From: a bacterium | Lineage (GTDB): Bacteria > JAHJDO01 | Length of the DNA stretch: 61,796 nt | Assembly (NCBI GenBank): GCA_018812485.1 | Contig: JAHJDO010000101.1 | Span: forward strand, 1 to 61,796 | Reading direction: 5' to 3' | In this document: one piece after another, positions 17,383-60,610 of the stretch | How positions within the stretch are numbered: the first letter of the stretch is position 1 | Layout of the letters: every line of letters begins with the position of its first letter | Made by a program: the position numbers and the translations under genes | The notes under the pieces: generated by a model | Databases searched by the model: none | Told to the model about the DNA's origin: nothing | The model's input: only the letters and a program-made list of their open reading frames with translations

Positions 17383-18075
17383 ATGAAAACAAAAGTTTAT
17401 GAATGTCCTTATATCAGCGAGAAAATGAAGATTGATGGTATTCTTAATGAGAAAGCGTGGCAAAAAGCTAAAATACTGGATTTCTACATACCTGTCACAC
17501 ATAAAAAACCAATAAGTAAAACAGAGGCTAGACTGCTATGGGACGATAAGTATTTGTATGTAGGATTTAAAGCCTATGACAAGGATATATGGGGATACTT
17601 TAAGGATAGAGATGACCCAACATGCAGAGAGGATGTCTTAGAGATTTTCTTTAAGACAGATACCAGGAGAGCCCCATATCAGAGCAGGGAGCCATACTAT
17701 AATTTTGAAATTAATGCATTAGGTACTGTTTATGATGCGTTCAACATAAAAAGAAATGCTGGGGGAGGAGATCATCACAGATGGAGCAAGTGGAACTGTG
17801 AAGGACTAAAAGTTGGAATAAAAATCAAAGGAACTTTAAATAACTGCGAAGATATAGACGAATACTGGCAGATGGAAGCAGCAATTCCTTTTGCAAGTTT
17901 ACCAACTTTAAAAGGGAAATCTCCAAAAAATAAAGACAAATGGTTGTTCCATCTAGCCCGCTACGACTATTCTGTATATCTTCCCAAAGGAGTAGAGCTG
18001 AGTTCGTGCTCTAAATTATCAGAGGTTAATTTTCATAAATACGAAGACTGGATGAACTTGAAATTCGTAAGATAA
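17383..18075 (+). CDS. CBM9-like carbohydrate-binding/DOMON-type protein
   Basis: Protein of 230 aa made almost entirely of one family 9 carbohydrate-binding-like beta-sandwich: IDGILNEKAWQKAK at the start, ARLLWDDKYLYVGFKAYD, EDVLEIFF, YYNFEINALGTVYDA, and a closing WQMEAAIPFASL. No signal peptide or catalytic domain is seen. Family members of this stand-alone type occur near glycoside hydrolases and sulfatases in PVC and related bacteria. Role: binds a sugar or aromatic ligand, otherwise unknown. Last gene of the plus-strand cluster. It is convergent with the decayed isomerase fragment. Confidence 0.8.
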   Translation: MKTKVYECPYISEKMKIDGILNEKAWQKAKILDFYIPVTHKKPISKTEARLLWDDKYLYVGFKAYDKDIWGYFKDRDDPTCREDVLEIFFKTDTRRAPYQSREPYYNFEINALGTVYDAFNIKRNAGGGDHHRWSKWNCEGLKVGIKIKGTLNNCEDIDEYWQMEAAIPFASLPTLKGKSPKNKDKWLFHLARYDYSVYLPKGVELSSCSKLSEVNFHKYEDWMNLKFVR

Positions 18076-18284: not shown

Positions 18285-20258
18285 TTATTTATTAACCCTG
18301 AAAACCATGCAATCCCTCGGGCCAAGTTCAACAGAATCTAAAGGCAGGATTTTTCTTTTCCATATCTCATATGTTTTTTTTGCATTAATACCTTCTCCCT
18401 TTAGAAATCCGGCTGTATTTATTATCGCTTTCCTGTCACTCCAGTTAAATACACCGATGAGAGAGGTGTTTCTATCCTTCGAGAGCCAGATTCTGGGGAT
18501 TCCAAACGAAAGCAAATCAAGAGGATGCCCTGCTACTCCGCTGGCATTCTCAAGAACTGTCTTTATCATCTCCAGTCCTTTTTTATTTAACATACTGAGT
18601 CTGTCTGAAAGCACGATGGAACCGCCTGAGACCAGTGTTAAGGATGCCCATACTCTCACTTCATGCTCTGTCCGGATAACCTCCCCTGTTCTTACAGAAA
18701 AAGGTTTATATGGCTTTTCAGGAATAAAAAGACTTAAGTCCTTATATGCGTTTATCTTTTTTTCTTTTGAAGTCTGTTTGTTTCTCACTATCAGGAAGTC
18801 ATAATCATTTTCCCATGTTCTGCCATTAAATATGCTCTTTACTGCAATATCCCGGGCAACAACAAGTATATTGGACCAATAAGAGCTTATGTCTATAGAA
18901 ACTCTGCAAGAGTCGTAAATTCCTGCACCTATTTCAGGAACAAACCCACCGCATCCAACGAGTATTGAATCTTCTCCAATCGCCCGCCTTATTGTTGATA
19001 TCCCTCCTTTGAGAGCTTCTATCGGTGTTACGTCCGGGTTGTGAAATCGTCCTTCTTTGCCTGCTTTAATTACATTGGAAAGAAAATCTATTTTAAAATA
19101 TCTGTATCCATCATTCCTTAGTTTTGAAAACGTCTCATGAAGAAATTTGAGTGTTCCTGGATGTGTCGGATCAAGATATGGAAGTTTAGTCTGACCTGCA
19201 CCAACTAATAAGCGTTTTTCCTTATCTTTACTTTTTATCTCAAACTCAGGATGACTTGCCTCAAGAACTCCTCTTTTATCCATCATAAACGGTCCGACCC
19301 ATATTCCGGGAATAAAGCCGGCTTTCTTGATCTTATCCGCCAGTATTTTCATGCCTCCGGGGAATTTATAATTCGGTTCCCACTCGCCATAACGGTGAGA
19401 CCATCCATCATCAATAATTATATATTTCACACACTTCTTTAACCACGACGTTCTTTTTATAAAATCCATATTTTCTATAATATCGTCTGCAGTAACCTGC
19501 CATAGATAGTAATCCCATGAATTCCAGCCCGCATTCCTTGCAAGATTTGGAGCAGGTCTTGGCCTGCCGAATAAAGAAGCAAACTTTAAAAGGGATTTTC
19601 TGATATCCTTGCCTCCTGAAACAATTAACCTGCCAATTCTGACCTTTATTTTCGGCTTAATGGATATTTTGACTTCTGAAATACCTTCAAACCTATTTCC
19701 TGTCTTTACAAAGCAGTTATTAAAAACACGGCCTTTATCAGGTATCATCCCGAAAAACATACCCTGCTGTAAAGCGGGATCGTAAATACATGTAAAAAGC
19801 CGGGACGTACTGCCGGCAACATCCGAGACCAGGGAGGGGGTCTTGAGAAAAGGTCTGTTCCCGATGCTTAATATCTCTTCAAAATTACCTGCTCTGGCAC
19901 AATCATTGTAAATTAACATTCTCAGGCTGTCCCTCTTTTGCCCTTTCCCGGATATCTTTGCAGGAGATAATGCTGTATTTATACTTAAAAACTTTACCTG
20001 CTCTATCCATACGGGAGATTTGCTCTTGTTTGTTATATCAATAGTCATTGAAGAAAAACAACCTTTATAAGAAGAAAAATTTAATTCTATATCAATATTC
20101 TTAAAACTGGCTTTTCCTGCATTTTTATTAACCGCAAAGGTTGGTCTGATTTCCCTGTTTTCCAGAACAACTGACGGCATAGCCGAACGAAAATACCAGC
20201 TGCCCTCACAAAATTCCCAGGATTTTGATTTCATTCTGATTTCTGAGCTGGATTTCAT
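18285..20258 (-). CDS. GH36-type (alpha-galactosidase-like) glycoside hydrolase
   Basis: Cytoplasmic clan GH-D glycosidase, 657 aa. The N-terminal beta-sandwich (about 1-235) leads to a TIM barrel beginning NAGWNSWDYY (242-251). YIIIDDGW (279-286), YFKIDFLSN with Asp391 as nucleophile, and CRVSIDISSYW with Asp456 as acid/base match GH36/GH27 catalysis. No signal peptide. AGGAGG lies 6 bases before the ATG. Substrate is probably an alpha-galactoside or another alpha-linked sugar. GH36 also includes alpha-N-acetylgalactosaminidases and raffinose synthase-like proteins, so specificity is open. Divergent from the amidohydrolase gene, with 165 bases between. Confidence 0.85.
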   Translation of the reverse strand: MKSSSEIRMKSKSWEFCEGSWYFRSAMPSVVLENREIRPTFAVNKNAGKASFKNIDIELNFSSYKGCFSSMTIDITNKSKSPVWIEQVKFLSINTALSPAKISGKGQKRDSLRMLIYNDCARAGNFEEILSIGNRPFLKTPSLVSDVAGSTSRLFTCIYDPALQQGMFFGMIPDKGRVFNNCFVKTGNRFEGISEVKISIKPKIKVRIGRLIVSGGKDIRKSLLKFASLFGRPRPAPNLARNAGWNSWDYYLWQVTADDIIENMDFIKRTSWLKKCVKYIIIDDGWSHRYGEWEPNYKFPGGMKILADKIKKAGFIPGIWVGPFMMDKRGVLEASHPEFEIKSKDKEKRLLVGAGQTKLPYLDPTHPGTLKFLHETFSKLRNDGYRYFKIDFLSNVIKAGKEGRFHNPDVTPIEALKGGISTIRRAIGEDSILVGCGGFVPEIGAGIYDSCRVSIDISSYWSNILVVARDIAVKSIFNGRTWENDYDFLIVRNKQTSKEKKINAYKDLSLFIPEKPYKPFSVRTGEVIRTEHEVRVWASLTLVSGGSIVLSDRLSMLNKKGLEMIKTVLENASGVAGHPLDLLSFGIPRIWLSKDRNTSLIGVFNWSDRKAIINTAGFLKGEGINAKKTYEIWKRKILPLDSVELGPRDCMVFRVNK

Positions 20259-30070: not shown

Positions 30071-31492
30071 ATGAAATCTCTTATTGAAGAAGGTTACAAA
30101 GTTTACAACGAATCTAAGATAAAAAAAGGTGGCAAGATTTATCTTCTTGCAAAAAAAGACCTTAAGAAATATCTGGTTTCGGATGATACGGAATTTGAGA
30201 AGTCTGTAGAAAAAATATCTAAATATAATGTCTATGAAAAAACTCACTTCAATGCTCTTAGATTGCGTAATTTATTCAAGCATCTAAATCCCGTTGCTTG
30301 CGGAATTAAGAGAAGTTTTGGTTTTGGAGACAGATTGGGATTAGCTACTCCGGGCCATATTAAGACCATTAAAGGCAGGGATATATTTCCGATTCTTTCC
30401 CAGCAGTCTATACGAGAAATGGAACGCACAGGCCGCAGTATGGAAATTGTCTTGGATGATGCTATGTGGGGAGTTTTTCAGGAAGGATACAGGAAAGGCT
30501 ATGGAGCAGATATTGACCATGTCAAAGAGCAGGATGATGTTATTAAAGCATGTGAACATGGTTATACTATGTACACCATAGACCCTTCAGATTATATTAA
30601 TGACAACGTAAAGGATATGTCTCATGAGGAACTTACATCAACGTATGAAAGTATTCCAAACACAGACTTCTACGAAAGGCTTTATTTGGGAAAAACCTAT
30701 GAAATAGGTAAAATAGGTGCAAACACATACAAGATGACCAAGACTGAGCTGATGAATATTATTTCTGTCTATGCCAAGGCATTAGAGCATATTGTAAATT
30801 GTTATAATATTGTTAAAGAGAGGATTTTAAACGGTTTTGATTTTGAGGCATCAGTAGATGAAACTGATACTCCAACCACTCTTTTAGCTCATATATTTAT
30901 TGTAGAGGAACTCAGGCGAAACAGGGTCAATTTTACAAGTCTGGCCTTAAGATTTATTGGAGAGTTTGAAAAAGGGATTGATTATATTGGTGATATAGAG
31001 ATATTTAAAAAAGATTTCTTAGCTCATGCTGATATATGCCGCCACTTTGGCGGATATAAGCTAAGCATTCACAGCGGCAGTGATAAATTTTCCATTTATC
31101 CGACAGTCGCAGAAGCTACTGAAGGAGTATTTCACATCAAGACAGCCGGAACAAACTGGCTGGAGGCAGTCCGCCTTATCAGCCATAAGAACCCTGTCCT
31201 CTACCGGCGCATGCACCAGATAGCACTTAGTAATTTTGAAAAAGACCGTAAATCATATCATGTTACCACTGATCTATCCAGAATTCCCGCGCTTAGCAAA
31301 CTCTCTAATGAAGAGCTCCCTGAGCTTCTCAATGAAAATAATTCCAGACAGCTTCTGCATATTACATACGGGAGCATCCTGAAAGATATGAAAGATGAGA
31401 TCTATAAGACCTTAAATATTTATGAGAATGAGCATTATGAGATGCTTGGAACCCACTTAGGTAAACATCTGGATTTGGCAAGCAACTCCTGA
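30071..31492 (+). CDS. uxaE: Tagaturonate epimerase (UxaE) family protein
   Basis: Full-length (473 aa) member of the tagaturonate/fructuronate epimerase family described in Thermotoga. Recognised from the run SFGFGDRLGLATPGHI, the Asp/Glu-rich DETDTPTTLLAHIFIVEEL, IHSGSDKFSIYP and FHIKTAGTNWLEAVR. It would convert D-tagaturonate to D-fructuronate in galacturonate breakdown, replacing the UxaB/UxaA route. It is alone on the plus strand, preceded by AAGGAG and an operator-like palindrome. No other galacturonate gene is present nearby. The last 58 bases overlap the convergent glycosyltransferase gene. Confidence 0.8.
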   Translation: MKSLIEEGYKVYNESKIKKGGKIYLLAKKDLKKYLVSDDTEFEKSVEKISKYNVYEKTHFNALRLRNLFKHLNPVACGIKRSFGFGDRLGLATPGHIKTIKGRDIFPILSQQSIREMERTGRSMEIVLDDAMWGVFQEGYRKGYGADIDHVKEQDDVIKACEHGYTMYTIDPSDYINDNVKDMSHEELTSTYESIPNTDFYERLYLGKTYEIGKIGANTYKMTKTELMNIISVYAKALEHIVNCYNIVKERILNGFDFEASVDETDTPTTLLAHIFIVEELRRNRVNFTSLALRFIGEFEKGIDYIGDIEIFKKDFLAHADICRHFGGYKLSIHSGSDKFSIYPTVAEATEGVFHIKTAGTNWLEAVRLISHKNPVLYRRMHQIALSNFEKDRKSYHVTTDLSRIPALSKLSNEELPELLNENNSRQLLHITYGSILKDMKDEIYKTLNIYENEHYEMLGTHLGKHLDLASNS

Positions 31493-36757: not shown

Positions 36758-38986
36758 TTATGTCCCAAACACAATCTTTGATTTTTCAATACTAATATGT
36801 CTTAGGGGAACTCCTAGAAATAGGCTCTTTAAATCAAATAAAGGGTTTAGTTTTTTTGATACCAAAGGCAGTAACCACGAAGGAATTTTTATATTACCAA
36901 GTCTTGCATTTACCAGATATATCTCTACGGTAGCCCTATCCTTGATATTAAGTGTTCCGCTCATCTGAAAATTAATATCTCTGCCCAATAAATGCGCAGT
37001 TCCATCTAATTCCATGTTTTTGCCGGAACCGGTTAAATAGCAAGTGGTTACCTGCTTATTTGTACTTAAAATATGATTTGTAATATCCTCAATAGAGACC
37101 TCTACATATATATTATTGCTCTGCGCAGGTATAAGTTTATGATATAAGAAAAGAGCCTCCGGATTTATGCGGGCATCTTTCCATGTAAGCTTTATCAGCC
37201 CTTTAAATTTCCTGCCAAGTTTTATGCCGGAGGCAGTGCAGATAATATCTCCCAGCTTTCCTTCGTTTAAATCAAGTTTGTCCCCGGATGCTAATGTTAT
37301 TTGGAACTCTTTGGGATTGCGCCATGCCCTTTCAAATATTGCTTTCAGATAAGCTTCAAGTTTTTTAGAATTTTTGTATGAATTAATATTTGCAGAAGCA
37401 AGGGTTATAGATGGTTTGAGACTTACTTTATATAATTTGAAGTTTAATTTTTTATGTCCATAAGCGTTATAAACATTGCTAATTTTATAATACGTCATTT
37501 GTGGATTTTTAGTGAATGCATCCTGAATTTTCTTAATCTGACCTGTATGTTCAAGCAGTAAATAAACTCCCTCATCTACACGGTCCCATATCTCCTCTGA
37601 GAACTTCCCAATAGGTATATCGTTGCTGAACTCCACTGGTCTAATGTTAAATCCTTTATTAAAGAAGTAGTAATATGCGTTTGACCATAACGACCTAGTA
37701 TAATAGATGGTTGAAAATCTGTCTGCATTTGCAGAAAAATATTCTACTGTATTTTGAAACCCATCTTCATTATCCCATCTTGCACCAAATCCCAAATTCT
37801 TTATGCCATCCAGTGTTCCTGAGGTAAGATTGATAAGTAAGACAAGTCCCAAACCAAGAGCAAATATTGCTAATGAAGTGGGGGATTTTGTTTTAGTGAA
37901 AAATTGCAGAAGCAGAGATAGATATCTGGCTAACAATATGAATACAAACGGTATAATAAACATCAGATAATGAGGAGAGAATCCAAACCTGAACAATGTG
38001 AAAGTTCCAAGCATAAGTGCAATATATCCCCCAATACATAAGCTTATGATATTCTTAAATCTGTGCTTGTTTTTGAGATTCAGAATTTCGTAAGCAATTA
38101 ATGCAGGAGCACTGATAAGAAAGAACATATTCACTACTGAGCTGTTAGTAAACTTTGAATACAGACTTAGCCAGTGAAAAAGTCTTGGTGTTAATTCTCC
38201 AGCCATAATTTTAAAAACTCCGCCTGTTGCGTTTACCTGAAATATAATGCCAAGTCTTGGATCTTCAAAGAATACTGCCCATATAAGCAGGCCCGCAAAC
38301 ACCATAGAGAAGCCAAAAACAAGTTTCATTAAAGGCTTCTTTATATAAAAACTAAATTCAGAATGCTTTGTTTGCACCCATTGCATGTATCTTAATATTA
38401 TGGAAAATGCTCCAATAATCGGCATGGCAAGAACGCCGAATTGCTTTGCGCAAAAACACAGGCCAAGAAAAATACCAGCCCAGAATTCCTTATAGATACA
38501 CAGAAAATATATAGAGAAAAGAAGCAGGCAGGCAAACAGAGTGTCTTCAAAAACCGTTGGCCCATAAAGTATGTTATACGGAGAAATTGCCATAAGAAAA
38601 GCAGCTATTCTTGCAGTGTTTTTATCAAAGCATTTGCAGCATATTTGATAAACAAGCCAGATGCTGATTAGGCTTGCAAAGAAATTCGGAAGTCTGGCAG
38701 TGTTATCTCCAAATCCGAATATTCTGAAAGATAATGCTGCAAGATAAGGAAGTAAAGGGGGCTTATCAACATCTTCAGCTTGAAAGAACCAGTCTCCTCT
38801 AAGAGCAATCTCAGCTCCTCTAAAACTGTATAAGGCTTCATCTCCATGAAAGTCTCCCAATCCAAACACACTTATGCGCAATAAAGCCCCAAGAATAAGA
38901 ATTATTATCAGCAATAAATTTCTATTCTGATTCAGGGAGGTTAGTCTGGTAATTAATCTACGAAACGATATTTCAGAAGAGACCAA
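36758..38986 (-). CDS. GT39-like membrane glycosyltransferase with DUF2993-like C-terminal domain
   Basis: 742 aa. The first about 430 residues form a polytopic GT-C domain: FGLGDFHGDEA with the catalytic Asp-Glu of the ArnT/PMT family near residues 45-52, EDVDKPPLLPYLAALSF, SPYNILYGPTVF and about ten hydrophobic segments. A periplasmic region with FSTIYYTRSLWSN leads to a C-terminal beta-rich domain (about 530-742) that looks like DUF2993/LmeA: GKLGDIICTASGIKLG, a middle TITNH-type strand and SWLLPLVSKKLNPLFDLKS near the end. The donor is probably a polyprenyl-phosphate sugar made by the GT2 gene that overlaps its start by 34 bases. Fusion of these two domains is not one I know. Confidence 0.78.
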   Translation of the reverse strand: MVSSEISFRRLITRLTSLNQNRNLLLIIILILGALLRISVFGLGDFHGDEALYSFRGAEIALRGDWFFQAEDVDKPPLLPYLAALSFRIFGFGDNTARLPNFFASLISIWLVYQICCKCFDKNTARIAAFLMAISPYNILYGPTVFEDTLFACLLLFSIYFLCIYKEFWAGIFLGLCFCAKQFGVLAMPIIGAFSIILRYMQWVQTKHSEFSFYIKKPLMKLVFGFSMVFAGLLIWAVFFEDPRLGIIFQVNATGGVFKIMAGELTPRLFHWLSLYSKFTNSSVVNMFFLISAPALIAYEILNLKNKHRFKNIISLCIGGYIALMLGTFTLFRFGFSPHYLMFIIPFVFILLARYLSLLLQFFTKTKSPTSLAIFALGLGLVLLINLTSGTLDGIKNLGFGARWDNEDGFQNTVEYFSANADRFSTIYYTRSLWSNAYYYFFNKGFNIRPVEFSNDIPIGKFSEEIWDRVDEGVYLLLEHTGQIKKIQDAFTKNPQMTYYKISNVYNAYGHKKLNFKLYKVSLKPSITLASANINSYKNSKKLEAYLKAIFERAWRNPKEFQITLASGDKLDLNEGKLGDIICTASGIKLGRKFKGLIKLTWKDARINPEALFLYHKLIPAQSNNIYVEVSIEDITNHILSTNKQVTTCYLTGSGKNMELDGTAHLLGRDINFQMSGTLNIKDRATVEIYLVNARLGNIKIPSWLLPLVSKKLNPLFDLKSLFLGVPLRHISIEKSKIVFGT

Positions 38987-48830: not shown

Positions 48831-48859
48831 TTGATTTCAAATAAGGCTGGCTCTATAAT
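48831..48859 (+). promoter_or_regulatory. Sigma-70-like promoter for the exopolysaccharide-like operon
   Basis: TTGATT (48831-48836) and TATAAT (48854-48859) are 17 bases apart, 28 bases before the glycosidase ATG. No strong terminator was seen in the 73 bases after etfB. Confidence 0.7.
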
Positions 48860-48887: not shown

Positions 48888-51245
48888 ATGAAAAAACTAG
48901 TTATAATTTCAGCAGCGTTATTGTTTCTTATCTTAATTCTTACCAACAGAGCTCCTAAGAGAGGTTTTATAGCTCCTGGTCCAGAAGTCAGCGTGAAACC
49001 TTCTTCAACTAAACTACTGTATGACTTCGAAGATGGTGATGAAGGATGGGTGGCTGAATCCGGTGCTTGCCTAGCTTCAAGCAGTGATTACTCTACTCAG
49101 GGTAAAAGTTCTCTTAAGGTATCTGTTACCCTTCAGGACGAGATTAACTTAAAAAAGCTCTGTCATGCTAACTGGCTTGGGTGGGACAGGTTAGTTTTTG
49201 ACATTTTACTACCTCGAAATGTTCCTGAAGGGATACAAGTACTTTTATGTCTCAAGGATGATGAGGATTTCTGGTACCAGAATACTCGCCCTTTCAGGCT
49301 CAAAAAAGGCTGGAATAATCTTTATGTGGATATCTCCAGCCAGAGCCATCAATGGAGTCCTAGGGGACATTTTAAGCCATGGAGCGGTTATGTTGCCCAG
49401 GAAGTTAAAGAACTGCGTATGAAACTTCTAAAAAAAATTTCTTATTCTGGTTCGATATACATCGACAATATTCACCTGACAAAACTGAAAGATACAGATG
49501 AGGAATTTACAAAGACCAAGCTGTATAATCTTAGAGTTAATTCTTCTCCGGTAAAACAGTATGAAAAATTTGAAATTAGTTTTGACCTATCAAGAGTATA
49601 TGCTAATCCTTTTGATCCTGAATTAATAGACATAACTGCCTATTTCATCTCCCCCAGCGGGATAATTTCCTCTATCCCAGGCTTTTTCTACCAACCCTAT
49701 TCCCGCAAATTAGCAGAAGGAAAAGAATATATTTGTCCCGTAGGGAATGCTTTCTGGATGGTGAGATTTAGTCCTGTTGAGGCTGGAAAGTACAGTTATT
49801 ACTTAGTAGTCAAAGACGGCAATACCCTGAAAACAAAAAAATATCATTTTGAATCCGTCCGCTCTGAAAGCAAAGGATTTGTCAGAGTAAGTTCAAAAGA
49901 TAAACAATATTTTGAGTTTGACGATAGCAGTTTTTACTATCCCATAGGTTTAAATATCATTTCTCCCTGGGATACTCCTTACGGGCAGAATTATGTTCCC
50001 AGTTTACCGATAGGCAAGGGCACTTATGCTTATGATGAATATTTCAATAAATTAGCTCAGAACAAAGCTAACTTTATCCGAATGTGGATGGCCCACTGGT
50101 GGCTTGCCTTGGAGTGGAACAGAGAATATGGGCCCTTCCATGGACTTGGCAGATACAGTCTCCAAAATGCCTGGCGAATGGACCATATTCTGGAAACGGC
50201 AGAAGAGAAAAACATATATATACTCCTAACCATTAATAACCATACTCAGCTAACCCATCACGAAAAAGGCTGGGAGCGTAATCCCTATAACACTACCAAT
50301 GGTGGTTTTATCGCCAACCCTCAGGAGTACTTTACTAACTTAAAGTCAGTGGACTTATTTAAAAATAAAATGCGTTACATTGTCGCACGCTGGGGATACT
50401 CTCCATATATCTTTGCCTGGAATTTCTGGAGTGAAATAGATCTCACTATTGGGTATAAAAATAACCCCAAACATCAAAAACTAGTCCGCGAATGGCATAA
50501 GAAAATGGCTCGATTTGTACGGCAGCTAGATCCATGGGCTCATATAATTTCAACTCATTATTGTCAACACTCAAAGGCAGTGCATCTTCTTGATCTTCCA
50601 GAGATTGATTTTACCCACAGTAATGCATGGACTAACAATGACGGGTTGCCAGATTCACAGGTAATGGCAATCAGGCAGTACTACCAGGCTATGAAGATGT
50701 TTAACAAACCCATATTTATTTCCGAGTTCGGCGGCCATTGGGCAGGCAGTCCTCCTGACATAATGGCTCGGGATCTGCATACAGGGCTCTGGGCTAATTT
50801 TATGTGTCCTCTGGCTGCTAGTCCTCTCTTCTGGTGGTGGAATTTTGTAGAAGAAAACAACCTGTATTTTCACTATAAAGCCCTAGCTGAGTTTGCTGCC
50901 GGAGAAGAACGCAGAAATAAGAATTTAGAGATGAAAGAAATTTCTCTGGTTGATGAAAGCGGATACCTGAGAGCACAATGTCTGGGCAATAAAGATACTG
51001 CGTATGTCTGGGTATATAGTTTCTTAAGTGCGTTAAGAATTCCTAATGAGGAAAGAATAATGAAGAATGCCACTATCATTCTAGAAGACATACTTGAAGG
51101 TAGTTATGCCGTAGAGTTCTGGGATACTTATAATGGAATTATCACAGACATGAAAGAAATTGCTACAGTTGAGGGCAAATTAACCGTAAAACTTCCGGAT
51201 ATCAGCAAAGATATGGCTTTAAAGATTAAGCTGAAAGCAAAATAA
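48888..51245 (+). CDS. Secreted DUF5060-type glycoside hydrolase with N-terminal carbohydrate-binding domain
   Basis: 785 aa. Residues 1-20 are a signal anchor, 40-200 a jelly-roll binding domain (LLYDFEDGDEGW ... IYIDNIHLTKL), 215-325 a DUF5060 beta-sandwich and about 330-675 a (beta/alpha)8 barrel of clan GH-A type (GTYAYDEYFNKLAQNKANFI, RMWMAHWW, WAWNFW region), then a C-terminal beta domain. The likely acid/base is Glu516 in WNFWSEID and the nucleophile Glu613 in FISEFGG. In nearly all clan GH-A enzymes the acid/base is preceded by Asn. Here it is Ser515. A paralogue on the minus strand at 56937 has the normal WNE. Likely acts outside the inner membrane on the glycan made by this operon. 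Confidence 0.8.
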   Translation: MKKLVIISAALLFLILILTNRAPKRGFIAPGPEVSVKPSSTKLLYDFEDGDEGWVAESGACLASSSDYSTQGKSSLKVSVTLQDEINLKKLCHANWLGWDRLVFDILLPRNVPEGIQVLLCLKDDEDFWYQNTRPFRLKKGWNNLYVDISSQSHQWSPRGHFKPWSGYVAQEVKELRMKLLKKISYSGSIYIDNIHLTKLKDTDEEFTKTKLYNLRVNSSPVKQYEKFEISFDLSRVYANPFDPELIDITAYFISPSGIISSIPGFFYQPYSRKLAEGKEYICPVGNAFWMVRFSPVEAGKYSYYLVVKDGNTLKTKKYHFESVRSESKGFVRVSSKDKQYFEFDDSSFYYPIGLNIISPWDTPYGQNYVPSLPIGKGTYAYDEYFNKLAQNKANFIRMWMAHWWLALEWNREYGPFHGLGRYSLQNAWRMDHILETAEEKNIYILLTINNHTQLTHHEKGWERNPYNTTNGGFIANPQEYFTNLKSVDLFKNKMRYIVARWGYSPYIFAWNFWSEIDLTIGYKNNPKHQKLVREWHKKMARFVRQLDPWAHIISTHYCQHSKAVHLLDLPEIDFTHSNAWTNNDGLPDSQVMAIRQYYQAMKMFNKPIFISEFGGHWAGSPPDIMARDLHTGLWANFMCPLAASPLFWWWNFVEENNLYFHYKALAEFAAGEERRNKNLEMKEISLVDESGYLRAQCLGNKDTAYVWVYSFLSALRIPNEERIMKNATIILEDILEGSYAVEFWDTYNGIITDMKEIATVEGKLTVKLPDISKDMALKIKLKAK

Positions 51246-53474
51246 ATGTTCAAACTCAGGATTTGCACAGAATGGATTAGAGTTTACCTGGCATTTTTGT
51301 TAGGCATTTTTTCTCTGGCTCTGAACGTTTATGCATCAGAGAGTGAATGGTGGAATACAGACTGGAAATACAGGAGCAAGCTGGTGGTTTTAACTCATGG
51401 GCTCAAGACTGATATAGATACTGCTTCTTTCTTGTTCTATCCCGTGGGGAGAGTAAATAAGAATCTGTCCGATATCCGGATAATTGATGAGCAGGGAAGG
51501 CAGACTCCTTATAAAGTCAGCTCCAATGAGGAAGAAAATCTGATTATAGACTTCAAGGTGGATAATGCCTCCAAGTGTGAATACTATATGTATTTCGGAA
51601 ATCCGAAAGCAGAAAAAATTGAGTATATGTTGAGACCAACCGCTAGCGGTTTGTTCCTGGAAACCAGAGAAAAAGCACGTAGTTCCCATCCCCGGGATTG
51701 GTCCCAAATGCAGACATTAATCCAGCAAAGCACTAAGATTTACGGCAAGGGCCCTCGCTGCCAAATCGATGACCTGGAGAACCCTTTTGGTTCTAATGAA
51801 AATTATCTCAGTATCTATCGTGGGACTATTTTCTGTCCGCTGGATGGCAAATATGGATTTGCCACTAACTCTGATGATGCCTCATTTTTGTTAGTTGATG
51901 GCAAGTTAGCAGTAAGCTGGCCTGGCGGGCATGAAAAGGAAGGTAAAGGACGACCCTTGATAGATAAATGGACTCACCAGGGAGAAATCTATTTAGAGAA
52001 AGGAGTACATCTTATCCAGTATTATCAAGAAGAGGGTACTGGCACACAACTATCACGGGCTGGATGGAAGAAACCCGGAGACAAAGACTTTATGATTATT
52101 CCGAAGGAGGCATTTATTGACAAATTAAAAGCCAGACAGGCTAGTCTTCAAGCCTATGGAAAACCTCTAAATGCTTTCTTCTTTACAGAGGAAAAAGAAA
52201 GCATGCGTTTTAATAGACAAACTCAGGAGTTGATATCTTTTCAATTTCAGGATGCTTCTATAAGTAAGGATAGCGGAACCCTTTCCTATCAATGGGACTT
52301 TGGGGATGGAAGTACCAGTAGCGAGAGGAATCCTCTGCATATTTACCCGGCTGACAGTATCTATAAAGTAAGATTACAGGTTAAAAATGTTGAAGACCTC
52401 ATGGATATCTATGAGAAATATATTCAGGTACATCCCCGGAGTCAGCCGAAAAGCATCCAGCTGGAATGGAGAGTTACTAACACCCTGAATATATTCTACC
52501 CGCAGGAACTACTTCAGTTAGGGGTCTGGATAAAAAACTATTCTGATACTGGCGCTAAGCTTAAGCTCGTCTGGGAATCTCTGGATAATAGGGGAGATAA
52601 GATTAAACAGGGTTCTAGGGAACTCGTTCTGGAACCGAATCAGGCAGAAAAGGTGGATATTCCTCCGGCCCGATTTATTAAAGATAAAAGTATGGATTTT
52701 TATCTGAGTTACGGCGGTAATATAATAACAAAAAAGAAAATAGAATTTTTAGATGTGGGTTCTGAGTTTAAAGGTCTAAGAATCGTGGAGGGTCACATAG
52801 AGGATTCAGAAAATAGCTTGGTGCTCTTTCGCATCAGCCAGACAAAAGCTCCTGCTTATCGTCCCCATCGTACTCAAAATAAAGCAAATATTGTTATACT
52901 GGGAGCTTCTTTTTACAATAAAGACGATAATGATAACTGCTGGAAAATACTTTCAGGATTACTGAAGAATTATTATGGGAATAAAGTTAAGGTAAACCTC
53001 AACTATGTAGAGATTTCAGAGGATGCACAAGTTAGTTCAGGTCTTCTGGGAATATGCCGATTAGAAGAAGCTATTAAACAGAATCCGGACCTGGTCCTGT
53101 TTTCCCTGGGAATGAATGAGGTTATTAGTCATCTTTCTCTGGGGGAATTCAAGCGCTGTTTAACCTTTCTTACCACAGCTATTAAATCCCGTGGGATACG
53201 CACTGTACTGGTAATTCCTCCACCGGTTATTGATAAAGTGATTTTTTCTATGGATATAGCCATAGCTGTGAAAGAAGTGGGATTAAGGCAGGCGGTTGAA
53301 ATGGTTGACCTTTTCAGCGCTTTTCCCAGGGAAGAGACTGCCCTTTCTCTGCTCTATCAATCTGATTTTTGTGAAAAAGTTCACCTTTTATATCCCCGCA
53401 GAGCTGGGCAGAGTTTAATAGCTAAACAAATCTTTGAAACAGTGAAGAAAAATGTCCCCAAACCAGAAAAATAA
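51246..53474 (+). CDS. Secreted DUF2341-PA14-PKD-SGNH multidomain protein
   Basis: 742 aa. Signal peptide 1-30 (cleavage after NVYA), DUF2341 about 34-125 (EWWNTDWKYRSKL), PA14-like domain about 165-290 (YRGTIFCPLDGKYGFATNSDD), PKD domain about 335-395 (YQWDFGDGSTSSE), a linker beta domain, and a C-terminal SGNH/GDSL-like domain from 546: GAS (553-555) with Ser555 in place of GDS, Asn624 in LGMNE, and EKVH with His713 near the end. The usual Asp of the DxxH pair is Glu710. If active it is an esterase or acyltransferase working on the surface polymer. Start codon follows the previous stop directly. Confidence 0.75.
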   Translation: MFKLRICTEWIRVYLAFLLGIFSLALNVYASESEWWNTDWKYRSKLVVLTHGLKTDIDTASFLFYPVGRVNKNLSDIRIIDEQGRQTPYKVSSNEEENLIIDFKVDNASKCEYYMYFGNPKAEKIEYMLRPTASGLFLETREKARSSHPRDWSQMQTLIQQSTKIYGKGPRCQIDDLENPFGSNENYLSIYRGTIFCPLDGKYGFATNSDDASFLLVDGKLAVSWPGGHEKEGKGRPLIDKWTHQGEIYLEKGVHLIQYYQEEGTGTQLSRAGWKKPGDKDFMIIPKEAFIDKLKARQASLQAYGKPLNAFFFTEEKESMRFNRQTQELISFQFQDASISKDSGTLSYQWDFGDGSTSSERNPLHIYPADSIYKVRLQVKNVEDLMDIYEKYIQVHPRSQPKSIQLEWRVTNTLNIFYPQELLQLGVWIKNYSDTGAKLKLVWESLDNRGDKIKQGSRELVLEPNQAEKVDIPPARFIKDKSMDFYLSYGGNIITKKKIEFLDVGSEFKGLRIVEGHIEDSENSLVLFRISQTKAPAYRPHRTQNKANIVILGASFYNKDDNDNCWKILSGLLKNYYGNKVKVNLNYVEISEDAQVSSGLLGICRLEEAIKQNPDLVLFSLGMNEVISHLSLGEFKRCLTFLTTAIKSRGIRTVLVIPPPVIDKVIFSMDIAIAVKEVGLRQAVEMVDLFSAFPREETALSLLYQSDFCEKVHLLYPRRAGQSLIAKQIFETVKKNVPKPEK

Positions 53475-54882
53475 GCACCTAGTCACGCACGAGCTTTTTC
53501 ATAAGCATCCGGAAGAGAGTGCCTGTCGCACTCTGACAGGAAGGCAGTGGATTATTCTCATCAGTTTATCAGTTTTACTGCTGGTATTCCTCATGGTATC
53601 ACCTTCCAGATGCCTTATTCTGGCGAATTTTCTGGCAGTAACTTTCTATATTCTCTTCTCTCTCTATAAATTTTTCCTTATTAATCTGTCAATAATGAAG
53701 AAAAAAGAGATAGAAGTTTCTGCAGGAGAAATAGAAGCATTGCCTGATGAAAAGCTGCCTGTCTATACCATTCTGGTTCCCTTATACAAAGAAACTGAAC
53801 TGTTAAAACAGATAACTACCTCTATTAATAAGCTTGACTATCCCAAGGATAAACTGGATGTAAAGTTGCTCCTGGAGGAGGATGACAGAGAAACCATAGA
53901 ATTTACCCAGAAGCTGAGCTTGGACAGCCATTTCAAGAGAGTGATTGTTCCCCACTCTATTCCCAAGACCAAACCTAAAGCTTGTAATCTGGGGCTTTCC
54001 GAGGCTCAGGGAGAATTTCTTGTAATTTACGATGCTGAAGACGTGCCCGAATCCGACCAGCTAAAGAAGGCCATACTGGCATTCAGGAAGGTACCTGATG
54101 AGGTTATCTGTCTGCAGGCAAAGCTGAATTTTTATAACCAGCGGCAGAACTGGCTTACCAGATGGTTCACTACTGAATACTCCATGTGGTTTGATCTTTA
54201 TCTGCCGGGCCTGGGAGATTTTGATGCCCCTATTCCCTTAGGTGGTACCTCCAATCACTTCAAGACAGACAAGCTCAAAGAACTGTGTGGATGGGATCCT
54301 TATAACGTAGCGGAAGACTGCGATCTGGGAATCAGACTTCATAAGAGGGGATATCGTACCCAGATGTTAGATTCCACTACCTGGGAAGAAGCTTGCAGTA
54401 ACCTGAAATACTGGATTCGCCAGAGATCCCGCTGGGTAAAGGGATATATTCAAACATATTTAGTAAATAATCGTCATCCTGTCAGTCTCCTTAAAAAACT
54501 GGGTATAAAAAATTATCTCAATTTTCACATGATTGTTGGAGGGATGTTTTTCTGTTTTTTAATGAATCCCTTTTACTGGCTGTTGACTTTGCTGTGGTTT
54601 CTTACCCGCTGGCAGGAGCTGGCTATCTTCTTCCCGCCGGCAGTATTTCTTCTTGGAGCACTGTGCCTTTTTGTGGGTAATTTCGTCTTTATCTATACAT
54701 GTGCCATAGGAGCCTATAAAAGAGGTTATTATGATTTGGTGAAATATGCACTGATAATTCCGCCTTATTGGGCATTAATAAGTATAGGAGCGTGGAAAGG
54801 CTTCATACAGCTGATAACCAGACCATTCTACTGGGAAAAGACCCGGCACGGTTTTTTTCAGGAAAATAAGAGAGAAAATTGA
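53452..54882 (+). CDS. Processive family 2 glycosyltransferase (cellulose synthase-like, XagB-like)
   Basis: 476 aa. Two N-terminal membrane helices (32-50, 54-80), cytoplasmic GT-A domain with DAED (194-197), SLGGTSNHF-like loop (IPLGGTSNHFKTD, 261-273), AEDCDLG (287-293) and QRSRW (324-328, the QxxRW of processive synthases), then three C-terminal membrane segments. TTEYSMWFDLYLPGLGDF is a hallmark of the XagB-like group. It would polymerise and export a polysaccharide. It overlaps the previous gene by 23 bases. No PilZ domain is fused, in contrast to BcsA. Confidence 0.87.
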   Translation: MSPNQKNKHLVTHELFHKHPEESACRTLTGRQWIILISLSVLLLVFLMVSPSRCLILANFLAVTFYILFSLYKFFLINLSIMKKKEIEVSAGEIEALPDEKLPVYTILVPLYKETELLKQITTSINKLDYPKDKLDVKLLLEEDDRETIEFTQKLSLDSHFKRVIVPHSIPKTKPKACNLGLSEAQGEFLVIYDAEDVPESDQLKKAILAFRKVPDEVICLQAKLNFYNQRQNWLTRWFTTEYSMWFDLYLPGLGDFDAPIPLGGTSNHFKTDKLKELCGWDPYNVAEDCDLGIRLHKRGYRTQMLDSTTWEEACSNLKYWIRQRSRWVKGYIQTYLVNNRHPVSLLKKLGIKNYLNFHMIVGGMFFCFLMNPFYWLLTLLWFLTRWQELAIFFPPAVFLLGALCLFVGNFVFIYTCAIGAYKRGYYDLVKYALIIPPYWALISIGAWKGFIQLITRPFYWEKTRHGFFQENKREN

Positions 54883-56183
54883 GAATCTCTAAAACTAAAT
54901 TTATGGAAAACCAGGTTATATTCCTGGCTGTTTTTGCTTTCAATTTAATTATTGCTTATTTCCTGGTCTTCAAATTTGGCTATGTTGCAGAGGAGGCAAT
55001 CATTCGCACCGGCCAGGCTCTTGATTTAATCAATGGCTATAATAGAGGCAGACAGAGTCTGATATGTTCAGTATGGTGGTTACCTCTGCCTACTTTTATT
55101 CAGTTGCCTCTGGCTTTTTGCAGGTTTCATCTCCATAAGCTCTTCCTGAATAATATAATATCCAGTTTCTTCGCTGCCGGTACTATAGTCTTCTTAAATA
55201 TGCTGTTCAAACACTGCGAATTAGACCGGCTCTACCGCTACCTGCTTTTGGCTGTTTTTCAGTTCACTCCTTTAATTCTCTTCTACTCTTCTAACGGTAC
55301 CAGCCAGATGATATTTGTGCTATTTCTAGTAGCCTCACTCTATTATTTGCTAAGCTGGTTAAAAGAAAATGGTTTGAGAGATTTTCTGTTTATGACGTTA
55401 AATACTTCCCTACTCTGTTTAATCAGGCTGGAAGGATTTTTTTATGCTCTAGCTATCCTGGCTATTGTTGTCGTAGTATCATTTCATCAGAAATATCAGC
55501 GTTCCCGGAAAGAAGGTCTCCTGCTTCTCTATCTTGCTCCAACTGGCTATCTGATCTCGCTCTGGTTTCTTTTTAACTGGCTGATAATGGGGGACTTGCT
55601 CTATTTTTTGAGAGGAATATTTTCTGGAGGAGGACAGTTGGAAAATCCATTGCTCAACTTTGTTATTATTTTACCTTTCGTTTTTATCCTATGGGCCAAG
55701 TTCCTTGAACTACAGGAAAAGAATAATCATTCCTATACTCTAAAGAAGTATATTTTTCTTATTCTCCTGATTGCCAGCTTGTTTTCAGGTCGAGCTCTTC
55801 ATCTAATTAAAAAAGAGGTGAACTGGGCGGGTAGGCATGAGCAAGAAATGGCGGAAATTGGAGCATATCTGGCTAAATATAAAGCGAATAGCCAGGTTTT
55901 AGTTACTGATTTTCAGGGTTACTTATTTAAATATTATGGCAGTGGGACCTATTTACTTACTCATTGCTTTGACTTTGACTTAGAAAAAATTCCTCCGGGT
56001 GATGAACCAGTTTATCTACTGGTTTCCCGTCCTGAAGACAAAGCTGGTTTTGGAAGTATCCACTGGAAATATCCTAACATTTATAATGAGGGTACCAAGT
56101 TTACTATGCTGGACCGGGATTTTGCCACCTGGCGGCTTTTTAGAGTAATTCGCGTTGATGGCAAGCTCATGGATGAAAGATAA
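54879..56183 (+). CDS. Polytopic membrane protein (GT-C-like or polymerase-like)
   Basis: 434 aa with about nine hydrophobic segments and an extended tail after 310. YVAEEAIIRTGQALDLINGY near residues 27-46 has the acidic first loop of GT-C glycosyltransferases. The frame starts with TTG overlapping the previous stop. An ATG at 54903 is an alternative. The C-terminal soluble part (about 320-434) contains VTDFQGYLFKYY. It may add a side-chain sugar or act on the polymer made by the adjacent synthase. No named family is certain. Confidence 0.6.
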   Translation: MRISKTKFMENQVIFLAVFAFNLIIAYFLVFKFGYVAEEAIIRTGQALDLINGYNRGRQSLICSVWWLPLPTFIQLPLAFCRFHLHKLFLNNIISSFFAAGTIVFLNMLFKHCELDRLYRYLLLAVFQFTPLILFYSSNGTSQMIFVLFLVASLYYLLSWLKENGLRDFLFMTLNTSLLCLIRLEGFFYALAILAIVVVVSFHQKYQRSRKEGLLLLYLAPTGYLISLWFLFNWLIMGDLLYFLRGIFSGGGQLENPLLNFVIILPFVFILWAKFLELQEKNNHSYTLKKYIFLILLIASLFSGRALHLIKKEVNWAGRHEQEMAEIGAYLAKYKANSQVLVTDFQGYLFKYYGSGTYLLTHCFDFDLEKIPPGDEPVYLLVSRPEDKAGFGSIHWKYPNIYNEGTKFTMLDRDFATWRLFRVIRVDGKLMDER

Positions 56184-56230
56184 ACAATAGCTGGAATTCT
56201 TATTCTTAAATATGATAGATTAGGATTGAA

Positions 56231-56923
56231 ATGAAAAGAAGAAATCCATTCAAACCAGTGGCGTTAAAGCATGGGTTCACGCTTTTGGAGCTTTTGGTTG
56301 TTATAGGCATAATTGCCGTACTTGCCAGCATACTTTTGCCTGTAGTAAACAGGGCTAGGGAAGAAGGGCGCAAGACGGCATGCATACAAACCATGAGACA
56401 GATTTATCTGGCTGTATCAATGTATAAGGATGACTACAATAATTATCTGCCTCCCTGGCTTTCTAATTTATATCCAAGTTACATCGGCACTAACAAAAAA
56501 ATTTACCTTTGTCTCAGCGATACTTCAAAAGGAACAGAGGGTGGAAAACCTGATTGGCACCAGGATCAATACTCAGAGACGGATGATACCAGTTCAAATA
56601 CTACCGCTCCAGGTCGTGACCCGCAAATTACCGCCTGCAGTTATCTCTATGAGTTCTGTGGTGCTACTTGTACATGGTTTGAAAACAGTTATGTCTCAAG
56701 TTCATCTGAGTTTATCGAAGCTGATACAAATAATGATGGTACAGTAACATGGAATGAAGCGAAGAAATGGCAGATGAAAAGTTATATGGGACCCAAAATT
56801 CCTATTGTGAGGTGTTTCTGGCATACCAGATCACCTTTAACAAATGATGATATTGTTTTGAATATGAGCTATGATGGAAACTTAACTATAAGCGGCCCTG
56901 AATGGGAAACCACTACTCATTAG
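56231..56923 (+). CDS. Type II secretion/type IV pilin-like pseudopilin with EF-hand-like loop
   Basis: 230 aa. The prepilin peptidase site HG/FTLLELLVVIGIIAVLAS has cleavage after Gly15 and Glu at +5, followed by a single helix. The body contains NRAREEGRKTACIQTMRQIY, common in planctomycete and omnitroph pseudopilins, and four Cys. Residues 165-176 (DTNNDGTVTWNE) match the EF-hand calcium loop exactly at positions 1, 3, 5, 6, 8 and 12. Function could be part of an extracellular filament or secretion device for the polymer. It is the last plus-strand gene of the operon. Confidence 0.8.
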   Translation: MKRRNPFKPVALKHGFTLLELLVVIGIIAVLASILLPVVNRAREEGRKTACIQTMRQIYLAVSMYKDDYNNYLPPWLSNLYPSYIGTNKKIYLCLSDTSKGTEGGKPDWHQDQYSETDDTSSNTTAPGRDPQITACSYLYEFCGATCTWFENSYVSSSSEFIEADTNNDGTVTWNEAKKWQMKSYMGPKIPIVRCFWHTRSPLTNDDIVLNMSYDGNLTISGPEWETTTH

Positions 56924-56936
56924 AGGAGGTTCCAGG

Positions 56937-58673
56937 TTATTCCAAATAGCTGATTTTTGCGGCAATATCTCTGTTGAAAGAAGGTATGGCGATAAGCAGG
57001 CTACCATCAGCGCATTTTATCTCTTCTTTTTTCAAAATTATGCCCTGATAGGTATCCCACCAGTATATCAGATAGTTGCCGGTTCTCAGGCCAAGTATCT
57101 CTCCATTAAGCGCATGCATTCTTTTATCGCTTTTATTCTGGATCCACAGTAACAAATTGGTGTTATCTTTGTTAACCAGAGCATGAGTTCTTACAAGAAT
57201 AGACGGGGTGGAATTTCCAGGATGATAACACTTAATTTGCCTGAACTGATAGTTTTCCTTTGTCCATTTCACATCTTTAACAAATTCTGCCAAGGCCTTA
57301 AAGTGATAATAAAGATTATTCTGGTCAATATGGCTGTCCCACCACCAGCTCATAGCCGTCCCGGCAGCTAAAGAAAAGACAGTGCTCCAGATACCGTCGT
57401 GCAGATAGTAGCCTTTGGGATCGCAACGTGAGTCCTGGTTGCTGTGAGTTATGGCAAATTCACCTACTAAATGAGGTTTAGCATACAACGTGTTCATTGT
57501 GTATCCCAATTTCTGGATCGTGAGAACAATGTCTTTACTCTCGTAGGTCCGGCTTTGAGTAAAATTAATGCCAGGTAACTGGAATACCTTAGTATCCCCC
57601 GGATTCTGGAAATAACTGGTGGTTACAAGATGTTTGTAGGGGTCGAACCTGGAGAGATATTGTATTATCTCCTTATGCCAATCCCAGACATTCTCAGAGG
57701 AGTAATTATCAGTGAAATCAACCTCATTCCACAGTTCCCAGGCCAATACATTGGGGCTGTAACCCCAGCGGGCTATAATATAGCGAAGTTTTTGCTTATA
57801 ATACTTTTTTGCCTGAGGACTGGTAAAAAACTCCTCTGGTTTAGCGCAGGGGCCGCCATTCGTCTTATTATATAGATTAGAAGACCATTTCCCGTAGGTT
57901 GAGGTGCTATTCAAAGTATTAAAAGTATCTATACACAGCATGACGTATATACCTCTGCTCTCTGCCAGATTGAGTACGTAGTCCAGCCGCCAGGCATCAG
58001 CCATGTTATAGCTGCCAAGTTTCTCCCATTCCAGAGCAAAAGCCCATGGAGAAAGCCAGATTCTAGTATAATTTTCGCCGGCCTCTTTCATTCTGGAAAA
58101 ATAGTAATCATAATCGTAGGTACCCTTATTAGAAGAATACCAGCATAGATTATGCCCCACTGCAAAGTAAGGACTTCCAGAGTCGAATTCAAAATAACGA
58201 CGATCCTCTGGACTAACCCTGATGAAGCCGCGAGTGTCTGAGGAAGTTACATGGAGTTTCCTGCGTCTAGAATGGTAAATATTAAGTTTATTCTTGAGAT
58301 GAAGCTGATAGTAATAAATTCCTTTCTGAGTGGGAGTAAAGCGTATCTTCCAGCATGGCTGCCCCTTAGGAACAAGAGAGACGTTCCCGTTCTTCGGAAG
58401 ACTCCGCTGGTAATCCTGATAGAGAAAGCCGAGTATATGTATTTTCTCCCTCTTCGGTGAGTAGAAAGTAGCGGTTACTTCAATATTCTCAGGGTTGAAA
58501 GGGTTGCCAGTGAACTGCTTCAGGTCAAAGGTAAGTTCAAATTGCTGGTAAGTCCTGATTGCTTTCTTAATTTCAGTTCTGAAATTTATTTTTTTCTCGT
58601 CTGCACAACCGGTCAGAATTAACCCGAGCATGATAAAACACAGGCATGTTCTTAGAATGACTTTTTCTCCCAT
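56937..58673 (-). CDS. DUF5060-type glycoside hydrolase, lipoprotein
   Basis: Paralogue of the gene at 48888 without its N-terminal binding domain. The frame opens at 58712, but the ATG at 58673 yields MGEKVILRTCLC and a signal peptide ending LTGC, a lipobox, giving a 578-aa lipoprotein. DUF5060 comes first (about 30-145), then the clan GH-A barrel with GTYDYDYYFSRMKEAGENY, Glu317 in LAWELWNEVDF (acid/base) and Glu405 in HLVGEFAI (nucleophile), and a C-terminal beta domain. All catalytic positions are normal. Convergent with the pseudopilin gene, 13 bases away. No strong ribosome binding site was seen before 58673. Confidence 0.82.
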   Translation of the reverse strand: MGEKVILRTCLCFIMLGLILTGCADEKKINFRTEIKKAIRTYQQFELTFDLKQFTGNPFNPENIEVTATFYSPKREKIHILGFLYQDYQRSLPKNGNVSLVPKGQPCWKIRFTPTQKGIYYYQLHLKNKLNIYHSRRRKLHVTSSDTRGFIRVSPEDRRYFEFDSGSPYFAVGHNLCWYSSNKGTYDYDYYFSRMKEAGENYTRIWLSPWAFALEWEKLGSYNMADAWRLDYVLNLAESRGIYVMLCIDTFNTLNSTSTYGKWSSNLYNKTNGGPCAKPEEFFTSPQAKKYYKQKLRYIIARWGYSPNVLAWELWNEVDFTDNYSSENVWDWHKEIIQYLSRFDPYKHLVTTSYFQNPGDTKVFQLPGINFTQSRTYESKDIVLTIQKLGYTMNTLYAKPHLVGEFAITHSNQDSRCDPKGYYLHDGIWSTVFSLAAGTAMSWWWDSHIDQNNLYYHFKALAEFVKDVKWTKENYQFRQIKCYHPGNSTPSILVRTHALVNKDNTNLLLWIQNKSDKRMHALNGEILGLRTGNYLIYWWDTYQGIILKKEEIKCADGSLLIAIPSFNRDIAAKISYLE

Positions 58674-58693
58674 GACGTCATCATAATCAAATT

Positions 58694-58933
58694 TTGGGAT
58701 ATCTTCAAGCACATCTTGAGCTTATCAGGGATTGTGGAATAAACAAGATTGAAATATGCTCTAGTATCTCTCATTTTAATCATAATAACACCGAACATAC
58801 AGAAGAGGTCAGAAAAAGTCTTCAAAAGTTAAAGATGGAAGCAGTCTCTTACCATGCTCCCTGCATAAAACTGATTTATCCAGAAATAACTGAGAAAAGA
58901 GAAGAGAGGGAAAAAGCCCCCTGTACCTCGTGA
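58694..58933 (+). pseudogene. N-terminal fragment of a sugar phosphate isomerase/epimerase
   Basis: Reading frame of 79 codons with QAHLELIRDCGINKIEICSS, VRKSLQKLKMEAVSYHAPC and YPEI: the second and third strands of the xylose isomerase-like barrel, where GI...IEI and (V)SYHAP are typical. The first strand and everything after about residue 75 are missing, and no plausible start or ribosome binding site precedes it (TGA lies 7 codons upstream in frame). A relic, comparable with the C-terminal fragment at 18130-18280. Confidence 0.6.
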
Positions 58934-60120: not shown

Positions 60121-60381
60121 TTAACTGATTTTTCTCATAAATTCCAGTGTTTCTCTGAATGATTTCACACCTGATGTTGCACCAGTTGCTGTTGTAGCCA
60201 GAGCACCTACTGCGTTTGCAAACCTGGCGGTTTTTTCCATTTGCCACCCTCTTATTATTCCTGTAAGAAATCCTGCTATAAAACAGTCGCCTGCTCCGGT
60301 AGTATCTATTGCTTTTACCTTATATGCAGGCGTTTTGAGCTTTTTATCCTTTGTAAAAACATAACTTCCTTTTTCTCCCAT
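60121..60381 (-). pseudogene. PfkB-family sugar kinase, C-terminal fragment
   Basis: 86 codons with the catalytic DTTGAGDCFIAGFLTG motif of PfkB (ribokinase) kinases, and ending in LEFMRKIS. The N-terminal two thirds (substrate lid and first ATP-site half) are gone. The intact start, MGEKGSYVF, resembles the mid-protein segment of normal PfkB proteins, not an N-terminus. It abuts the alcohol dehydrogenase N-terminus at 60377-60381, in a different frame. Cannot be a working kinase as it stands. Confidence 0.8.
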
Positions 60382-60610
60382 TTTTAAAACCGCTTATTTC
60401 TTTTCCTGTCTCTGCTATTTTACCTGCTATTTCGTGGCCTGTAATACGGGGTGGTGTAATTAGCTTATGTCCCTGATTATAGATTCTGAGGTCACTGCCG
60501 CAGATAGCACATGCTTTAATCTTAACAAGAACTTCGCCCGGTTTTATTTCAGGATCCGGGACCTCTTTTAGTATAATGCGTTTTGGTCCTTCATAAACTG
60601 CAGCTTTCAT
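60377..60610 (-). pseudogene. Zinc-dependent alcohol dehydrogenase, N-terminal fragment
   Basis: 78 residues of a medium-chain zinc dehydrogenase (GroES-like domain): MKAAVYEGPKRIILKEVPDP, the zinc ligand Cys in CAICGSDLR, and GHEIAG. Homology stops at GFKNG, where the usual GFKVGDRV begins, and the frame continues for 10 unrelated codons into the PfkB fragment. The structural zinc loop, Rossmann domain and C-terminus are missing. Its ATG overlaps the aldolase stop by 4 bases, so it was once a normal operon member. Confidence 0.8.

Follow-up and report, generated by a model that had tools for sequence, protein, structure and literature searches.

A candidate surface-polysaccharide locus with a conserved pseudopilin partner, linked in relatives to a type II secretion operon

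Results

Five co-directional genes in a 61,796-nucleotide stretch of bacterial DNA (contig JAHJDO010000101.1, the whole of which we call the window) encode a glycosidase, an SGNH-fold protein, a GT2 synthase, a GT-C membrane protein and a pseudopilin, and we find the pseudopilin to be a genuine, conserved partner of the polymer genes, because relatives in other phyla co-inherit the pilin with the polymer genes and the pilin there heads a pilus-type secretion machine. A surface-polysaccharide module with a dedicated pseudopilus is in our judgment the best explanation of the locus as a whole (probability about 0.6). The broader interpretation as an exopolysaccharide system, put forward in an earlier note made from the sequence alone, is well supported by the family membership of the GT2 and by conserved gene order.

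Structure and setting of the locus

The list of open reading frames agrees with the coordinates, adjacent codons and overlaps that the earlier note gave for a tightly packed plus-strand locus. It begins with a DUF5060 glycosidase (GH; 48888-51245) that has a clan GH-A-like barrel and an N-terminal membrane anchor or signal, followed at the adjacent codon by a secreted protein (51246-53474) with DUF2341, PA14 and PKD domains and a C-terminal SGNH-fold domain. The GT2 synthase gene (53452-54882) overlaps the SGNH gene by 23 bases and is itself overlapped by the gene for a GT39/PMT_2-like membrane glycosyltransferase of the GT-C fold (54879-56183) by 4 bases, a figure that presumes a TTG start at 54879, with the ATG at 54903 as an alternative. 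The pseudopilin gene (56231-56923) closes the series. Pfam assigned DUF5060 to the first protein, PKD, PA14, DUF2341 and a weak GDSL match to the second, GT2 to the third, a weak PMT_2 match to the fourth, and N_methyl with a DUF1559 start to the fifth. Convergent with the pilin gene lies a second DUF5060 glycosidase (56937-58712, minus strand), overlooked in the earlier note, which has a lipoprotein-like signal (LTGC) and is a 34% identical paralogue of the first. As to the claim that the locus is promoter-led, a putative sigma-70-like promoter, TTGATT-17-TATAAT (48831-48859, plus strand), is the joint best match of the region in a motif scan, but promoter-like matches in the region are no more numerous than chance would give (29 found versus 27.6 expected).

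The genome to which this contig belongs comes from an isolated genus and comprises 2.68 Mb in 172 contigs. At 39-42% GC the locus is close to the remaining window (38%), and the gene directly upstream encodes an electron-transfer flavoprotein with an ETF domain (Pfam), so that we see no sign of a chimeric contig. Within the genus the locus is accessory, since the glycosidase was found in none of the four congeners and neither was a close GT2, a single distant match being all that they yielded. We rejected the idea that the locus is common to the genus: the paralogues of the SGNH protein that are conserved there (C71:33440-34846 in the same genome, and C92 of both G001 and G003) align at about 32-34% identity with its N-terminal 500 residues only, lack the SGNH domain and have no GT2, GH or pilin beside them. 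Elsewhere the window encodes a CBM9-like protein (17383-18075), a melibiase-like protein (18285-20258), the tagaturonate epimerase UxaE (30071-31492) and a further large PMT_2 membrane protein (36758-38986). At 60121-60610 on the minus strand, the truncated start of a zinc-type alcohol dehydrogenase (88 aa) runs into the truncated end of a PfkB-like sugar kinase (86 aa), as if a deletion had fused two broken genes.

The synthase and its membrane partner

By sequence, the window GT2 is assigned to the XagB/cellulose-synthase-like synthases and is about 50% identical to XagB of other phyla. The QxxRW motif recognized earlier is present (Q324-R-S-R-W328) along with a DxD-type motif, DAED (194-197), and the TED motif reads AED. 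The closest solved structure is E. coli BcsA (PDB 7lby, E 5e-16), and the best NCBIfam match, cellulose synthase, is far under its cut-off (79 versus 699 bits). The family is widespread among 84,980 species genomes, the best 80 loci being 44-58% identical and including one from Xanthomonas (L129, 50%). The window GT2 groups with cellulose-synthase-like enzymes and XagB rather than with the non-processive enzymes that the earlier note had raised as a contrary outcome, and the tree places it in a set of 23 sequences (support 95) rich in PVC bacteria, together with that of L078, an unclassified bacterium. An N-terminal extension is missing from all but one of these 23 and is borne by the Xanthomonas GT2 and most GT2s outside their neighborhood; it proved to be MshEN in eight of nine outside GT2s tested, a c-di-GMP-binding domain of type II secretion system (T2SS) and T4P ATPases (PMC5013675). 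Pfam found neither MshEN nor PilZ in the window GT2, and no BcsB gene was found next to it. Two other members of the family are a second GT2 in the genome of L078 (L166), which has a DUF5060 glycosidase gene of its own immediately before it and lacks SGNH, GT-C and pilin genes, and a 1337-aa Chloroflexota GT2 (L079, 6934-10944) with six MshEN-type stretches fused N-terminally.

The AlphaFold model of the membrane protein (pTM 0.84, mean pLDDT 82) matches oligosaccharyltransferases, protein mannosyltransferases and AftB, and the protein is thus a GT-C enzyme as judged from its predicted fold. A homologue of it comes after the GT2 in most loci, and the pair also occurs across Bacillota, Actinomycetota and Chloroflexota, so widespread a pairing that the description of these two as unfamiliar proteins had to be given up. 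Some Bacillota loci have a BcsB protein and a DPM-like GT2 beside the pair, and a polyprenyl-phosphate sugar donor for the GT-C enzyme would agree with the latter. We also weighed a pilin glycosylation cassette, in which the GT2 and the GT-C enzyme build a glycan and transfer it onto the pseudopilin, as might be suggested by the position of the pilin gene next to the GT-C gene and by the GT-C model, whose fold is matched best in the PDB by oligosaccharyltransferases such as PglB. We consider this very improbable, given that the GT2/GT-C pair occurs without this pilin across the same three phyla, that a second kind of locus in Verrucomicrobiota has the GT2 and pilin and no GT-C, and that QxxRW and sequence type ally the GT2 with cellulose synthases.

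The SGNH-fold protein and the glycosidases

The C-terminal end of the SGNH protein matches the SGNH fold of 1yzf (TM 0.78 by target) and retains the Ser, Asn and His residues, with Asp replaced by Glu. The catalytic residues are gone from its relatives in L071, L098, L113, L114 and L132, and the carbohydrate-modifying activity once proposed for it, of the AlgX/AlgJ-like kind, does not fit a family in which these residues are not conserved. As they are mostly lost in relatives at the same position, the family appears to have a binding or scaffolding role where related loci have BcsB, and the protein is more likely a periplasmic polymer-binding partner or scaffold than an esterase.

The glycosidase has the DUF5060 domain and a barrel with two catalytic glutamates, Glu516 and Glu613, which are invariant among seven relatives, and it matches PDB 9gmj, a DUF5060 protein, with E 9e-86; we found no functional paper on DUF5060 or entry 9GMJ in the open-licence literature. 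Giant DUF5060 proteins of about 1330-1390 aa occur in L257 and L259, near an operon of pilin, secretin, PilM and GspE genes.

Gene order in relatives

Gene order, whose scattering in relatives would have told against a common system, is conserved in other phyla (L078, L082, L071, L206 and L207). L078 has GH-SGNH-GT2-GTC in the order and strand of the window. In L082 (Kiritimatiellia), L206 and L207 the order is SGNH-GT2-GTC, with the pilin divergent from the SGNH gene and a GH near; L071 (Lentisphaerae) has the gene set of L082, its pilin being broken by a contig end that shares a 127-base exact overlap with the next contig. Four loci read pilin-SGNH-GT2-GTC (L098, L205, L208 and L209). The second kind of locus reads GT2-pilin-GH-SGNH-like (L199 and L202) or GT2-pilin (L198, L201 and L212), or has the GT2 with GH-SGNH (L203 and L217). 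In the genomes of L078 and G370 the pilin lies away from the GT2; in both unclassified genomes (L161, 7729-11039; L254, 8321-11598) the genes next to the pilin orthologue encode two NDP-sugar epimerases and a membrane protein with HEAT repeats.

This conserved linkage bears on whether the locus could be a catabolic one that breaks down a polysaccharide from outside and has the GT2 and GT-C genes as unrelated neighbors. The DUF5060 proteins do resemble plant-polymer enzymes, and genes for UxaE, a melibiase-like protein, a UroD-type protein and a class II aldolase are near in the window. Yet the GH, SGNH, GT2 and GT-C genes are contiguous and overlapping in both the window and L078, a second GH-GT2 pair occurs in the latter genome (L166), and a GH is present in all 42 GT2 genomes of the survey described below, so that a catabolic locus is largely refuted and is the reading to which we give least credence.

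The pseudopilin is inherited with the polymer genes

The pilin has an N-terminal prepilin cleavage/methylation segment and shares with its orthologues the signature SYxYEF...PxxRCxH...GN...WE. It also has a real EF-hand-like loop, DTNNDGTVTWNE, as the earlier note observed; as only about 6 of 22 orthologues have such a loop, we dropped it as a defining feature of the family. Each of five genomes contains one full-length match to the window pilin (itself or an orthologue, 37-49% identity, 102-188 bits), whereas their other pseudopilins match it N-terminally only, at no more than 73 bits, and although a genome can contain as many as 291 pilin-like candidates, the orthologue alone matches over the full length.

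In a survey of 241 genomes from the phylum of L082's genome (a Kiritimatiellia relative), the GT2 occurs in 42, a full-length pilin orthologue in 43 and both in 41, versus 7.5 expected (Fisher 1e-42, a statistic that ignores shared ancestry and is inflated by common descent). Physical linkage gives support independent of these inflated values: in 25 of the 41 genomes the two genes share a contig and are no more than 15 kb apart, and in one more (L071) they are split by a contig end. Strong SGNH homologues occur in 19 survey genomes, all of which have the GT2. In a domain-wide set of 385 genomes selected around that of the window, strong pilin orthologues are confined to three, namely the window genome, that of L078 and G370. 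Orthology, co-occurrence and linkage together led us to reject a chance neighbor drawn from dozens to hundreds of pilins, and they make the partnership stronger than the earlier note had guessed.

The pilin heads a type II secretion operon in relatives

In Verrucomicrobiota relatives the machine to which the pilin is linked belongs to type II secretion. In many of these relatives the pilin heads an operon of genes for a secretin (PF00263), PilM (PF11104), PilN/O-like and PilP-like proteins and a GspE with MshEN and T2SSE domains (Pfam), and in L218 further proteins with prepilin-like starts come after GspE. The pilin adjoins a secretin of one particular class in 16 of 23 genomes, and it does so in L257-L262 although the GT2 lies elsewhere. 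This secretin looks dedicated, as several pilin-secretin genomes encode, at another place, a further secretin that is less closely related, and as the pilin-linked set of G172 is accompanied by a second PilM-like/secretin set (L222). The synthase of the window-type clade has no MshEN, but the GspE whose gene lies near that of the pilin does have one, a complementarity that we report as an observation and not as proof of common control. At the threshold used, the dedicated class is missing from 18 of the 42 GT2 genomes. It was not found in the window genome or that of L078, where no T2SS genes lie beside the locus either, and the best secretin match in the window genome has counterparts in all four congeners, which do not have the locus. 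We identified no outer-membrane polysaccharide pore within the locus.

The T2SS is a protein secretion machine, and the pseudopilus could accordingly belong to one that exports only the GH, SGNH-fold and similar proteins, with the polymer leaving by another pore. The N-terminal signals of the GH and SGNH proteins and their place in the same loci speak for such a division of labor, as do five genomes that have the dedicated secretin without the GT2. We nevertheless judge it unlikely, if credible, because, taken alone, it leaves unexplained why GT2 and pilin occur together almost one to one and why eight genomes that have the GH and lack the GT2 also lack the pilin.

Discussion

We favor the reading that the window encodes, in compact form, a module for polysaccharide synthesis that in relatives is coupled to a type II secretion pseudopilus, and we think it probably correct. 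The substrate, the chemistry of the polymer, the cargo of the pseudopilus and the location of the secretion system are predictions of the following model. The GT2 would polymerize a hexose (or HexNAc) chain on the cytoplasmic side and thread it across the inner membrane, and the GT-C enzyme would add sugars periplasmically from a polyprenyl-phosphate donor. The PA14/PKD/SGNH-fold protein would hold the polymer in the periplasm, in place of the BcsB of related loci, while one or both DUF5060 glycosidases would trim or release it. The dedicated pseudopilin would build a T2SS-type pseudopilus serving outer-membrane delivery of the polymer or its protein partners, and the organism of the window would rely for this on T2SS genes at another place in its genome. 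We propose the synthase role because of family membership, the requirement for XagB in biofilm formation by Xanthomonas rpfG mutants (PMC3609779) and the cluster named Sfz that has been proposed for the stalks of iron-oxidising bacteria (PMC8250860), and the role of the pseudopilus in polymer delivery because of co-inheritance, linkage and analogy with cyanobacterial hps pseudopilins, which are proposed to act with T4P in polysaccharide export (PMC6495340; for the coupling of HPS and T4P, PMC9239167).

The nearest precedents are cyanobacterial HPS and the Xag, Sfz and Nfr loci. The xagABCD operon of Xanthomonas is a biofilm polysaccharide operon whose GT2 (L129) shares about 50% identity and QxxRW with that of the window; unlike the latter, XagB has an N-terminal MshEN, and the genes beside the L129 GT2 included no SGNH protein, DUF5060 GH or pilin. 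The Sfz/Sfb cluster likewise combines an XagB-like GT2, here carrying a GspE-type N-terminal domain, with a putative carbohydrate-hydrolysis protein; it differs in its BcsB-like Sfz1, its other hydrolase and the lack of a reported pseudopilin (PMC8250860). NfrB-NfrA, the N4 glycan receptor synthase of E. coli, pairs a GT2 polymerase with MshEN, the domain common to T2SS and T4P ATPases (PMC8669469). The likeness is one of description; NfrB carries its MshEN at the C-terminus, the window GT2 has none, and the NfrA pore was not found in the window. In hps loci, also likened by description, pseudopilin genes adjoin glycosyltransferase genes; their own genes encode a membrane protein and pseudopilins (hpsA-D) and glycosyltransferases (hpsE-G), and neither a DUF5060 GH nor an SGNH protein is described there (PMC6495340, PMC9239167). 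BcsA-BcsB resembles the window in the match of the GT2 to BcsA (7lby) and in a periplasmic partner gene directly upstream, but the GT2 is far below the cellulose synthase cut-off, the partner is not BcsB and there is no PilZ match.

We found no published description of this gene combination in the open-licence literature. It is a tentative and rather doubtful step from here to a new class of polysaccharide export, found in Verrucomicrobiota and scattered uncultured lineages, in which the polymerase product would pass through the secretin by means of a dedicated T2SS pseudopilus and an inactive SGNH-fold protein would act as BcsB.

Only for a few systems (Bcs, Pga and Alg) is it known how a polymer made by a cellulose-like synthase gets past the outer membrane. 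If our reading is true, a pseudopilus-linked synthase module would join two machines that have been regarded as separate, and it would provide a frame for older hints such as the pseudopilins of hps loci and the MshEN domains of GspE type with which XagB and NfrB are fused. The prediction could be tested in those PVC bacteria that can be cultivated, Kiritimatiellia and Lentisphaeria among them, whose surface polymers have been little studied.
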